Under the pieces are notes generated by a model that worked only from the letters and a program-made list of their open reading frames with translations, was not told the origin of the DNA and did no database searches. Below are positions 17,960-21,751 of a stretch of DNA of 21,753 bases, one piece after another. Each line of letters opens with the position of its first letter. Positions within the stretch are counted from its first letter, which is position 1. A program made the translations under genes and the position numbers. Location: positions 1 through 21,753 of the IMG/VR virus record IMGVR_UViG_3300027714_001892, one strand, 5' to 3'. The DNA is from a virus.

Positions 17960-18678
17960 TAGGCAACGGCCCAAGTCAGAAAGATATAGATTGGTCTTCA
18001 TTTAAAGATGAAGAGTGGTGGGGTTTCAACGCAGTTCGAGACACTCCAACTAAACCCGACCTATTATTCTGTGTTGATATAGAAGTTCAAGCAGGTATCG
18101 TCAAGGAAGAATACTATAAGACAAACAAGGTTGCATTCGCAGAGTTCAATACAGTCCCTATAGAAATGTGGGACATGATGAAGATAGAATTTAGTAAATG
18201 GAAACACTTCATTGAGATTAGAAACGAAGGGGATACGGAGTTTAGTATACAGGGAGATTTTGATTACGAGGAAGCATACTTCATAGGAATCAACGGTGAG
18301 TACATTGATAACATAATCACGTATGACTACCCCGACCTTAAGAATTTGTTTGGTGGCCCAAGTGCTTTGGGATATGCAATAGCACAAGGTCATAAAGATA
18401 TATGTTTAATGGGTATGGACGCATTAGAACATGGAGACCCTACTAGCATCTTTGCAGATAGCGGACTATTTAAGTATAAGACTAAATATACTAAGGACGA
18501 TAGAGTGTTTCACACTCAACAACAACAGTTTCTTGCTTTGTTAAAGAAGCATGAAGACATTAATGTCTACTGGAGAAAGCCTATTGACGGTTTAACCAAA
18601 ATAGACTATAATGTATTAGACTATGAGAATAGTGAAGAATGGATATTAGGAAGGGGTCACCCATCCGAAACATCTTGA
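17947..18678 (+). CDS. MptE/DUF115- or GT42-like glycosyltransferase-fold protein
   Basis: This 243-residue protein starts with LNIVGNGPSQKDIDWSSF, the nucleotide-binding GNGPS motif of DUF115/MptE-like proteins and GT42 sialyltransferases. It continues with KPDLLFCVDIE near residue 37 and has GGPSALGYAIAQGHKDICLM followed by GMDALE near 150, the second half of the same Rossmann-like site. Such enzymes use a nucleotide-activated sugar or similar donor, often for surface glycans. The frame is open back to 17794 inside gp59, but homology begins at 17947, so that start is chosen. Its placement between gp59 and gp32 interrupts a pair adjacent in T4. Acceptor and donor are unknown. Confidence 0.8.
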   Translation: MLNIVGNGPSQKDIDWSSFKDEEWWGFNAVRDTPTKPDLLFCVDIEVQAGIVKEEYYKTNKVAFAEFNTVPIEMWDMMKIEFSKWKHFIEIRNEGDTEFSIQGDFDYEEAYFIGINGEYIDNIITYDYPDLKNLFGGPSALGYAIAQGHKDICLMGMDALEHGDPTSIFADSGLFKYKTKYTKDDRVFHTQQQQFLALLKKHEDINVYWRKPIDGLTKIDYNVLDYENSEEWILGRGHPSETS

Positions 18679-18719: not shown

Positions 18720-19619
18720 ATGAGTAGTAGTTTAGATAAACTAAGAGCAGCGATGGAAACTGCTTCACCAACAGGTGGTGAAAAAAAATCCTTTAATGAC
18801 GACACGATGTGGAAACCCGAACTCGATAAGAGTGGTAACGGTTACGCAGTAGTTCGTTTCCTTCCTACCCCCGAGGGTGAAGAGATGCCATGGGTATCAT
18901 ACTTCGACCACGGTTTCCAAGGGCCAGGCGGTTGGTATATTGAGAAGTCTTTAACGACTCTTAATAAACAAGACCCAGTGTCCGAGTACAATACTCAGTT
19001 ATGGAATACAGGTGTTGAAGCAAACAAAGACCAAGCACGTAAGCAGAAGCGAAGACTTCATTATGTGTCTAACATCCTTGTTATATCAGACCCTAAAAAT
19101 CCCGATAACGAAGGTAGAGTATTTAAGTATAGATACGGAAAGAAAATCTTTGAAGCACTCAAGGAAGCAATCTCACCAGCATTTGAAGATGAGAAAGCAA
19201 TTAATCCTTTTGACTTGAGAGGTGAAGGTGCCAACTTTAAGATTAAAATCAGAAAAGTTGATGGTTACTGGAACTATGATAAATCAGAGTTCGATGCAAC
19301 CGCACCATTATATGATGATGAGCAAAAGCTTGTAGCATTGGTTAACAACCTACATAGCTTGAGTGGTATTATTGCACCTAGTGAGTTTAAATCTTACGAA
19401 GAGTTAAAAGAGAAACTCGATAGAGTTCTTGGATTAACTGGAGCAGTAACAAATTCTACAGCAGAATCAGTTGCAGAAGACATGGAAGAAGTGCCATGGG
19501 CTGATGTCAACAAAGAGCCTGTTGCAGACGAACCTGTAGTTTCATCAGCTGAGTCAACTCCCCAAGTGGAAGAAGACGATGCGATGGACTACTTTAAGAA
19601 ACTAGCTGCTGACAGTTAG
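18720..19619 (+). CDS. 32: gp32 single-stranded-DNA-binding protein
   Basis: This 299-residue protein is the T4-type replication and recombination SSB. Its core matches gp32: MWKPELDKSGNGYAVVRFLP near residue 31, WVSYFDHGFQGPGGWYIEKS, RRLHYVSNILVISDPKNP, GRVFKYRYGKKIFEAL near 137, GANFKIKIRKVDGYWNYDKS and FKSYEELKEKLDRVLG. The C-terminal 60 residues are acidic (EVEE-type segments, EEDDAMDYFKKLAADS), the protein-interaction tail. The T4 zinc ligands (one His and three Cys) are missing; the segment reads TTLNKQDPVSEYNTQLWNTG with no cysteine, as I recall for cyanophage gp32. TAGGAG gives a strong start. It is followed by a structured RNA and the bS21 gene. Confidence 0.95.
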   Translation: MSSSLDKLRAAMETASPTGGEKKSFNDDTMWKPELDKSGNGYAVVRFLPTPEGEEMPWVSYFDHGFQGPGGWYIEKSLTTLNKQDPVSEYNTQLWNTGVEANKDQARKQKRRLHYVSNILVISDPKNPDNEGRVFKYRYGKKIFEALKEAISPAFEDEKAINPFDLRGEGANFKIKIRKVDGYWNYDKSEFDATAPLYDDEQKLVALVNNLHSLSGIIAPSEFKSYEELKEKLDRVLGLTGAVTNSTAESVAEDMEEVPWADVNKEPVADEPVVSSAESTPQVEEDDAMDYFKKLAADS

Positions 19620-19630
19620 GTTCTTATTAT

Positions 19631-19797
19631 GGGGCAGTCGTGTTTCTTTGAAATGTGTCCTTGAATAAAGACGACTGCACACTGAGACCGTGGAAAAGAT
19701 TGGGGGTACTCAGTAAGGGAAAGATAGTACGTGAATAGCGGGTCTATCGGAAGAGAGCGGGAATGCTGTAAAGCGTGGGGCGACTCTTCACTTTTTA
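19631..19797 (+). ncRNA. GC-rich multi-hairpin RNA leading into bS21
   Basis: About 165 bases between gp32 and bS21 are non-coding, about 49 percent GC and G-rich on this strand, and fold into four consecutive hairpins. P1 pairs 19634-19641 with 19671-19678 (8 perfect pairs), extended by CTTT/AAAG at 19646-19649/19667-19670. P2 pairs 19681-19689 with 19705-19714 (9 pairs, one bulged A). P3 pairs GATAG 19723-19727 with CTATC 19744-19748. P4 pairs GAAGAG 19750-19755 with CTCTTC 19784-19789 and encloses ATGCT-GTAA-AGCGT (19763-19776), a GNRA-type tetraloop. A T run follows P4. I recognise no known RNA family. It could be a cis-acting leader of bS21 or a separate small RNA. Confidence 0.7.
19750..19796 (+). 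terminator. Terminator-like stem and T run before bS21
   Basis: GAAGAG/CTCTTC closes a 40-base hairpin and is followed two bases later by TTTTT (19792-19796). The T run runs straight into AGGA, the ribosome binding site of bS21. Such a placement suits an attenuator that stops or allows transcription into bS21, or simple termination after gp32. Confidence 0.5.
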
Positions 19798-19807
19798 GGA
19801 AAAAATT

Positions 19808-20053
19808 ATGCCAAGTGTTACACCAAAAATAAATCCGAAGAATCGAAACGTAGAAGGGTTCGACCAACTTCTTCGCCGATTTAAGAAGCAGTGTGAAAAC
19901 GCAGGTATAGTTCAAGAAGTTCGGGACAGACAACATTTTCTGAAACCGAATGCAATCAAGAACCAAAAGAACCAAGACCAAAAGAGAAGGAAGAAGTTAG
20001 ATGCAAAAAGAGCACTGCAGAATCCTCGTAGATTCAGAGGGCCGTTAGGTTGA
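19808..20053 (+). CDS. rpsU: Ribosomal protein bS21
   Basis: This 81-residue basic protein matches bacterial ribosomal protein bS21 (about 70 residues): [20 protein letters not shown] near residue 16 corresponds to the E. coli segment [20 protein letters not shown], followed by [12 protein letters not shown] and a Lys/Arg-rich C-terminal tail. bS21 sits on the 30S platform near the 3' end of 16S rRNA and helps initiation. Phage-encoded bS21 is known from marine phages, including pelagiphages, and may replace the host copy to bias translation. The N-terminus is about ten residues longer than in E. coli. AGGA lies 7 bases before the ATG. A structured RNA lies directly upstream. Confidence 0.93.
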
Positions 20054-20057
20054 TATC

Positions 20058-20279
20058 ATGGCAAATCAATGGCACGGTGGAAAGGGTTCAAAACGTCGGA
20101 GTTCTAATGACTCAGCATTCGCTGATAATTGGGATGCAATCTTTGGCAAGAAGGTTGAGGTAAAGACTCGAAAGGTCACACCATCACACGGACTTACTCA
20201 AGTCCAAACAGATAAAACAAAATATAATAGAAAGACTATGTCTAAGTCAGATATCCTTAAAGGGCCTGACTCATTCTGA
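20058..20279 (+). CDS. Small conserved marine T4-like phage protein
   Basis: This 73-residue basic protein starts ANQWHGGKGSKRRSSN and has DNWDAIFGKK near residue 22, a signature I recall in small T4-like cyanophage proteins of unknown function. The rest is Lys/Thr-rich and probably disordered. It follows bS21 after 4 bases, sharing its transcript. Its last 9 bases overlap the end of the convergent minus-strand gene. Confidence 0.75.
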   Translation: MANQWHGGKGSKRRSSNDSAFADNWDAIFGKKVEVKTRKVTPSHGLTQVQTDKTKYNRKTMSKSDILKGPDSF

Positions 20280-20429
20280 TTGACTGATACCGTTTTTTAA
20301 ACAGTATTCTCTTAGGGTGGTTTTACCTTCTCGATTACCGAAGGTACTTAGAAGCTTCTCTCTCTGTTCATCACGATTCTTAGTCCATACTTCCAATTCT
20401 TCTTTGGACATCTTTCTTATAGAATCCAT
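20271..20429 (-). CDS. Small hypothetical protein downstream of the tail gene, 52 aa
   Basis: On the minus strand the tape-measure-like gene's stop overlaps an ATG (TGATG at 20431-20427) that opens a 52-residue frame. The product is charged and helical (MSKEELEVWTKNRDEQREK and TTLREYCLKNG). It resembles a small soluble helix-turn-helix-size protein but no family is recognised. Support comes from the coupled start, the composition and the otherwise empty 150 bases. A downstream in-frame ATG at 20411 is an alternative start. Confidence 0.55.
   Translation of the reverse strand: MDSIRKMSKEELEVWTKNRDEQREKLLSTFGNREGKTTLREYCLKNGISQSE
20287..20307. terminator. Candidate hairpin at the convergence of two transcription units
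   Basis: ATAC-C-GTTT and AAAC-A-GTAT form eight pairs with one mismatch around a TTT loop, 8 bases after the plus-strand stop. It lies within the end of the minus-strand small gene. The following bases are only moderately T-rich, so confidence is low. Confidence 0.25.
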
Positions 20430-21751
20430 CAATCGATTGATAGTGTAGAAGTCCTACTTTGAGATGACTCGAAAGGTTTGACATTAGGTATTTGATTAAA
20501 GACACTGTTTGATACACTTGAACTATTGTTCTGATTAGTTGCAACTGATATTGCAGTGGATTTCTCTGAAGCAGCTTGTCCTTCTTTTCGTGTCTTATCT
20601 AAATCAGTACCTTGGTTTGCTAGGACTCTATCACCTATAGACAGTTTGTTACGTTGTTCCATTTCTGCTTTAACTAGTTTCATGTCGTCTTCATTCAAAT
20701 CGTTATGTTTAATAATTTCTTGTAATTCATTACTAGAAGCACCAGCAATCTTACTTTCATCTATTGTAGAGAATAATAAACTGTTTCTATTGTAGAGACC
20801 ACTTTCTTCTGCAGATTCAGTACCCCTTCCAGTAAGCATATTGGCTGCCCATTCGGGTAGAAGACTTTCAACGAAGTCACCTACAAGTGAACCAATCTTT
20901 CTAAGTGGTGCGAACATGAAGTCAAATATTCCTGTGACTATTTTAAAGAACCCATCTACAACACCACCAAAGTCCCCTTGGAATGCAGCTGAGAACATAT
21001 CAAAGAATCCACCGAAGACATCTTTTACTGCTTGCCACATATTACCAAAGACATCCATGATGTTACTAACTATGCTCGTAATAACATCGAATACAAATCC
21101 AAACACGCTCTTTAAAGTCTCACCTATGATAGGGAACTTATTGAATACTGCAACCACCGCTGCAACTAGTAGTGCAACTCCAAGTGCAATTAATAACCCC
21201 ATTGCAATGAATGGTAAGGATGCTACAATCATTGAAACTGCAAACATAGTGGTTGCAACAACAAATCCTAATACAGCAGGAATGAATTTCAATGCTGACA
21301 TTAAGACTCTCTTTGCACTCACACCGAATGATTTCAAACCTGCGCTCAAGACTAATCCATCTCCACCAAACATCTTCATTGACATTACCATTTTCTTGGT
21401 AGACTTACCCATCTCTCCAATACTACTGAAGAATCCATTAACAGTTTCCCCATACTTCTGCAAGGACTTTGAACCAGCGTTCCTAAGTTTGTCGAACGAA
21501 GAACCTTCCATTGTCAGTAAATTTTTATAGTTTTCAGCATGACCTTTCATTTGGTCGAAATTTTCATTCATCATGTCACGAGCTTCATTTTTAGCTGGCA
21601 TGACTGGGCCGAATTCTGAGGTGTTCTTATCTCCACCTATTGTGGCACTGCCTCCAATCTGTTTGGGTATTACACTTATAAGAGCATTCTTAACCCCATT
21701 CAACATATCGGTTATACCAGCAGCTGCTTCCTTTGGTACAGAGTCGTTCAT
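20429..21751 (-). CDS. Tape-measure-like tail protein (partial, C-terminal part)
   Basis: This minus-strand frame gives 440 residues and is open to the window edge; the Met at 21751 is probably internal, so only the C-terminal part is seen. It has a Gly/Ser-rich region, then a long hydrophobic stretch (ALKFIPAVLGFVVATTMFAV near residue 151 and LPFIAMGLLIALGVALLVAA) followed by repeated amphipathic segments (NIMDVFGNMWQAVKDVFGGF and FFKIVTGIFDFMFAPLRKIG). The C-terminal 130 residues are polar and Asn/Ser-rich. This hydrophobic, repeat-like layout is typical of the C-terminal part of phage tape-measure proteins, which set tail length and may form a membrane channel. No enzymatic motif is seen. 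Another tail- or baseplate-associated protein remains possible. Confidence 0.65.
   Translation of the reverse strand: MNDSVPKEAAAGITDMLNGVKNALISVIPKQIGGSATIGGDKNTSEFGPVMPAKNEARDMMNENFDQMKGHAENYKNLLTMEGSSFDKLRNAGSKSLQKYGETVNGFFSSIGEMGKSTKKMVMSMKMFGGDGLVLSAGLKSFGVSAKRVLMSALKFIPAVLGFVVATTMFAVSMIVASLPFIAMGLLIALGVALLVAAVVAVFNKFPIIGETLKSVFGFVFDVITSIVSNIMDVFGNMWQAVKDVFGGFFDMFSAAFQGDFGGVVDGFFKIVTGIFDFMFAPLRKIGSLVGDFVESLLPEWAANMLTGRGTESAEESGLYNRNSLLFSTIDESKIAGASSNELQEIIKHNDLNEDDMKLVKAEMEQRNKLSIGDRVLANQGTDLDKTRKEGQAASEKSTAISVATNQNNSSSVSNSVFNQIPNVKPFESSQSRTSTLSID

Follow-up and report, generated by a model that had tools for sequence, protein, structure and literature searches.

Bacterial ribosomal protein genes often carry autoregulatory RNA leaders. 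The ribosomal protein bS21 also occurs in the ribonucleoprotein formed by OLE RNA, where its site mimics an SD/anti-SD duplex with the sequence CCUCCU (PMC12054373). Marine T4-like phages contain the structured RNAs manA, wcaG and PhotoRC-II (Weinberg 2010, PMC2864571), and the phage Melnitz carries a glutamine riboswitch and a two-piece tmRNA (PMC9004378).

The DNA analysed here, termed the window, is a sequence of 21,753 nucleotides from an ocean phage (IMG/VR record IMGVR_UViG_3300027714_001892), in which the genes for the single-stranded DNA-binding protein gp32 and for a phage bS21 flank a structured RNA. A preliminary description had interpreted this RNA as a leader or attenuator of bS21 and had named a free small RNA as the alternative. 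The comparative analysis strongly supports the structured RNA as such, corrects the tempting, unsupported idea of a bS21 leader and fits the free small RNA better.

The gp32 Locus and Its RNA

The RNA lies directly behind gp32 and consists of four hairpins (P1-P4). The features of the locus are as follows:

18584..18612, plus strand: putative promoter of the sigma70 type for gp32 and the RNA (TTGACG-17-TATAAT), 11/12 consensus matches
18720..19619, plus strand: gp32 single-stranded DNA-binding protein (PF08804, E 8e-37)
19631..19797, plus strand: conserved four-hairpin RNA, clade 1 form (covariance models R1 and R2; covariation)
19631..19633, plus strand: unpaired invariant GGG 5' of P1 (invariant columns of alignment A1)
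19634..19678, plus strand: P1, with helix 19634-19641/19671-19678 and a large loop containing AUGUGUCC..UGA
19681..19714, plus strand: P2, stem 19681-19689/19705-19714 of 6 bp, a bulged A and 3 bp; conserved loop GUGGA..GG
19715..19722, plus strand: P2-P3 linker AAGGGAAA, GGnAAR conserved across lineages
19723..19748, plus strand: P3, helix 19723-19727/19744-19748; AGCGG conserved in the 3' part of the loop
19750..19789, plus strand: P4, outer helix 19750-19755/19784-19789, RC/GY step, GGG/GGG internal loop, GUAA hairpin
19792..19796, plus strand: T run 3' of P4, intrinsic-terminator-like by sequence
19808..20053, plus strand: phage bS21 (PF01165, E 1.5e-12), 3' neighbour of the RNA solely in this lineage
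20058-20279: small basic protein (MANQWHGGKGSKRR...), without a match in Pfam and PHROGs searches
20429-21751, minus strand: convergent gene, which matches tail tape-measure families weakly

From the gp32 stop (19619) to the bS21 ATG (19808) there are 188 bases free of genes, as the preliminary description had stated. A small open reading frame in the P1 loop was considered and rejected: the frames that start at the loop AUG in relatives span 1-63 codons, and therefore no small protein is conserved. The GC-rich, G-skewed composition noted before was likewise found (46.5% GC and a skew of +0.33 at 19600-19799, most neighbouring stretches having about 36-44% GC), and the four hairpins stand where they had been placed. 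The 167 nt reach a folding energy of -53.2 kcal/mol, compared with -41.5 +/- 3.5 kcal/mol for shuffled sequences (z = -3.37), and 1/200 shuffles folds as well as the native sequence. The GNRA-type tetraloop of the last stem is the GUAA at 19768-19771; the T run follows this terminal stem, and a weak AGGA (19797-19800) comes right after the end of the RNA. Judged by its sequence, the 3' end qualifies as a putative intrinsic terminator, and 60/84 distinct clade 1 sequences contain at least 5 U within the best 8 nt 3' of P4.

Covariation of the Fold

Homologous gaps were gathered from IMG/VR using bS21 and gp32 as baits, and 45 sequences were aligned with MAFFT in a structure-blind manner (alignment A1). 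In this set, where sequences inside one lineage are related and IMG/VR records represent fragments, the four-hairpin model yields 87.5% standard pairs, changes on both sides in 27/35 pairs and a covariation score of 0.495, compared with 0.196 for shuffled and at most 0.136 for slid partners. P2 is paired in 96.8% of cells with 6/9 pairs changed on both sides, P3 in 98.7% with 6/7 such pairs, and P4 in 96.1%; the R-Y pair in the RC/GY step of P4 is GC in 29/45 and AU in 15/45 sequences.

P1 is misaligned by MAFFT, because its stem changes so fast. In a sequence-by-sequence analysis, 44/45 cases have a helix of 8 or more pairs, free of interruptions, immediately 3' of the invariant GGG; the exception (L075, 3 pairs) looks like an artefact of the search anchoring. 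The P1 helix exists in 23 distinct versions, all of which are paired, with a mean of 9.4 bp for the own partner and 3.3 bp for permuted partners (largest permuted mean 5.5 bp). An alignment of 84 distinct sequences fitted by covariance model, and hence leaning towards the model, has 97.7% of cells paired. Taken together, the covariation of the four-hairpin fold is overwhelming.

At the second base pair of P3, 45/84 sequences have G-U, 31/84 A-U and 8/84 G-C. Since G-U would correspond to an unpaired C/A on the other strand, the functional element is the plus-strand RNA. The unpaired GGG, GGnAA, GCGG and GGGG motifs are less variable than the stems, and such conserved unpaired motifs beside fast-changing stems are the mark of a specific molecular function.

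Lineages and Gene Neighbours

The RNA is kept in more than 100 related virus sequences, and its clade 1 form comprises at least 84 distinct sequences. The covariance model R1 matches the window at 19629-19805 with 160.6 bits, and by this model clade 1 contigs always carry the RNA behind gp32. In records of 66-146 kb the RNA is present as a single copy, located at the gp32 locus, and loci with 57-64% identical gp32 yield weak matches at the same position.

Two further lineages of T4-like phages (clades 2 and 3), retrieved from metagenomes with two additional baits, carry a divergent RNA behind gp32. This form reads GAGGAAAGAUAUC..GCGGCAG..GAUAUCGG, followed by a P4 with GCGGG..GRGGGGC. The model R2 was built from the core of the clade 2/3 RNA only, clade 1 being left out of the training, and a mixed-lineage alignment (A2) was set aside as poorly framed. 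R2 matches P3-P4 of the window (19716-19797) with an E-value of 1.6e-4 in 434 kb, which is a rough value owing to a shortened calibration. Because R2 finds P3-P4 of the window, the homology of the two forms follows independently. Two reduced forms (L264 and L266) consist of P3 and P4 only; some phages can therefore do without P1 and P2.

Outside these lineages, a blastn search of 50,697 records of cultured phages with the RNA returned no match, and R1 and R2 gave nothing convincing on HTVC008M, Mosig, Melnitz and P-SSM2. A stringent scan of 84,980 species, aimed at bacterial chromosomes, produced 2 pattern matches, 1 of which carries the RNA. This 121-kb contig (JAAXIF010000105.1) from a Sphingobacteriales MAG bin harbours the RNA along with gp32, a methyltransferase and bS21, and given these phage neighbours the bin probably contains phage DNA here.

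The RNA has gp32 as its 5' neighbour in 73/74 clade 1 loci; the remaining locus is truncated where the stored sequence stops. The 3' side is variable: bS21 follows directly in 50/74 loci (3 contigs end too early), and a DNA methyltransferase gene of the N6/N4 type (293-298 aa, assigned by Pfam and PHROGs) stands between the RNA and bS21 in 21/74, i.e., about a quarter. The insertion is placed exactly between the two, as in L038:3581-4468 and at least 20 further loci. A sigma70-like promoter separates the RNA from bS21 in 6/55 clade 1 loci. In clades 2 and 3, each of the 35 loci whose flanks were long enough has bS21 at a distance of 2-3 kb upstream of gp32, and the gene 3' of the RNA is either convergent (L092, clade 2), so that there is no downstream sense gene to control, or encodes a homolog of the window's small basic protein (L090), which recurs behind the RNA in clade 3.

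This gene order bears on the proposal that the RNA regulates phage bS21, or a methyltransferase-bS21 operon, as its leader or attenuator and by way of the bS21 protein or a ligand. In favour of this proposal, the next start codon in clade 1, in most cases the one of bS21, is within a few tens of bases of the RNA end, and leaders of this sort are frequent in bacterial ribosomal protein genes. However, the intervening methyltransferase genes and promoters and the upstream location of bS21 in clades 2 and 3 are at odds with such a role. Sequestration of the bS21 ribosome-binding site found no support either, its own pairing being no better than permuted (-3.44 versus -3.26 +/- 0.20 kcal/mol, p = 0.18). 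We consider a leader function quite improbable.

Alternatively, the RNA might be complexed with phage bS21 in trans, by analogy to OLE RNA and its bS21 component, wherever the bS21 gene lies. Every RNA-bearing phage with enough sequence indeed encodes bS21; yet PMC7029224 describes bS21 as core among pelagimyophages, and the co-occurrence is therefore uninformative. Four relatives lack the RNA and keep bS21, namely HTVC008M, Mosig, Melnitz and a 121-kb contig, and the anti-SD mimic CCUCC appears in 0/84 distinct RNAs. An OLE-like complex thus seems very improbable.

Promoters and the gp32 3' End

All 49 clade 2/3 sequences contain a T4-type late-promoter sequence, TATAAAT[AG], between the gp32 stop and the RNA, 6-32 bases past the stop and a short distance 5' of the RNA. 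The clade 1 gap between gp32 and the RNA has no evident promoter and no TATAAAT[AG], so that in this lineage the RNA may act solely as a part of the gp32 mRNA; a site similar to the sigma70-like promoter of the window precedes gp32 in 51/55 clade 1 loci. Inverted repeats flank the late promoter in clade 3 (GUCAAUCC..GGAUUGAC, e.g., L323:3392-3465) and in clade 2 (GUUAUA..UAUAAC, e.g., L089:3373-3392).

Repeats of this kind around a promoter might hint at an element that works as DNA, such as a replication origin, a cruciform or a late-promoter architecture. We regard this as exceedingly improbable, since G-U pairs are abundant on one strand only and the order promoter-RNA-terminator points to RNA.

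Other T4-like marine phages bear a different conserved, apparently structured segment behind gp32 (L097:3368-3490, L100, L108, L114 and the Melnitz locus L117:3326-3470). It reads GGUAUACUAG..GUGCAGUAAG..GUAACACCACA..GACUAG, precedes a terminator hairpin and has a consensus fold of -38.7 kcal/mol, based on five sequences only. The gp32 3' end may be a recurrent site for structured RNAs.

A Candidate Trans-Acting RNA

The position of the RNA is fixed behind gp32, while the next gene changes, and the RNA has a terminator sequence of its own and, in two lineages, its own promoter sequence; for these reasons it is best seen as a noncoding RNA or as a gp32 3' UTR, and not as a bS21 leader. As a cis-acting element of the gp32 mRNA 3' UTR, it would combine a terminator with a structured domain for mRNA stabilisation or for protein binding, for instance by gp32 in a feedback loop. 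The nearly constant gp32 neighbour would agree with such an arrangement, as would HTVC008M, Mosig and P-SSM2, which have a plain terminator-like hairpin where P4 and the U run sit. A terminator or stabiliser, however, needs fewer near-invariant unpaired residues, and the late promoter of clades 2 and 3 would yield the RNA without gp32. We deem a pure 3' UTR function possible but less probable.

The reading that we favour, with modest confidence, takes the RNA as a new noncoding RNA family of phages that is fixed directly behind gp32, ends at a terminator and probably acts in trans. Our preference for action in trans rests on the late promoter and on the unpaired motifs, whose conservation goes far beyond what a terminator needs. 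In clade 1 the RNA would form the 3' end of the gp32 transcript, from which processing near the 5' GGG of the RNA would probably release it as a discrete species, while the two sister lineages would also produce it from their T4-type late promoter. In all lineages, transcription would probably stop at the P4 hairpin and the U run. The RNA would then probably act in trans, most likely through its G-rich unpaired P2, P3 and P4 motifs, to which a protein or ribonucleoprotein may bind. A more specific version, which we put forward tentatively and consider rather unlikely, is a phage ribonucleoprotein RNA, made with gp32 or from the late promoter, that targets in trans the host RNA polymerase or ribosomes containing the phage bS21.

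Comparison with Known RNAs

The RNA had been called unrecognised, and this assessment stands: the window matches no Rfam 15 family at the gathering threshold (the best sub-threshold match, a chance one, scores 16.9 bits, against a gathering value of 39), and representatives of clades 2 and 3 gave chance matches only, none at threshold. Neither result that the preliminary description had named as speaking against it, missing conservation or covariation in relatives or a hit to a known RNA family, was obtained. ARAGORN detected no tRNA-like domain (tRNA or tmRNA) in the window, and our literature search, which was of incomplete coverage, retrieved no description of the RNA. The RNA is thus without an Rfam family, yet conserved in two forms at one fixed genomic address.

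Like the autoregulatory leaders of ribosomal proteins, the clade 1 RNA is structured and adjoins the ribosome-binding site of a ribosomal protein gene. In contrast to these leaders, it is not tied to a ribosomal protein gene across lineages, pairs with the ribosome-binding site no better than by chance and has no Rfam match. With OLE RNA it shares the character of a structured noncoding RNA in bS21-encoding genomes; yet it measures about 170 nt (OLE about 600), lacks CCUCC, is not matched by the OLE Rfam model and resides in phages, whereas OLE belongs to Bacillota. manA, wcaG and PhotoRC-II are comparable as covarying RNAs of marine sequences and T4-like phages, but the Rfam scan of the window matched none of them. 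The glutamine riboswitch and the tmRNA of Melnitz are structured RNAs of a related marine phage and differ from the present RNA in sequence and position; at the Melnitz locus the riboswitch was found and the present RNA was not.

The 3' UTR-derived or intergenic small RNAs of bacteria resemble the phage RNA in their location behind a coding gene, their 3' hairpin with a U run and, for two of the phage lineages, a promoter sequence of their own. Compared with typical base-pairing small RNAs, however, the phage RNA is larger and folded more rigidly, and its conserved motifs reside in internal loops and linkers. If it indeed forms a ribonucleoprotein that targets RNA polymerase or the ribosome, it would represent a new functional class of viral RNA, unlike a base-pairing small RNA or a cis-acting element.
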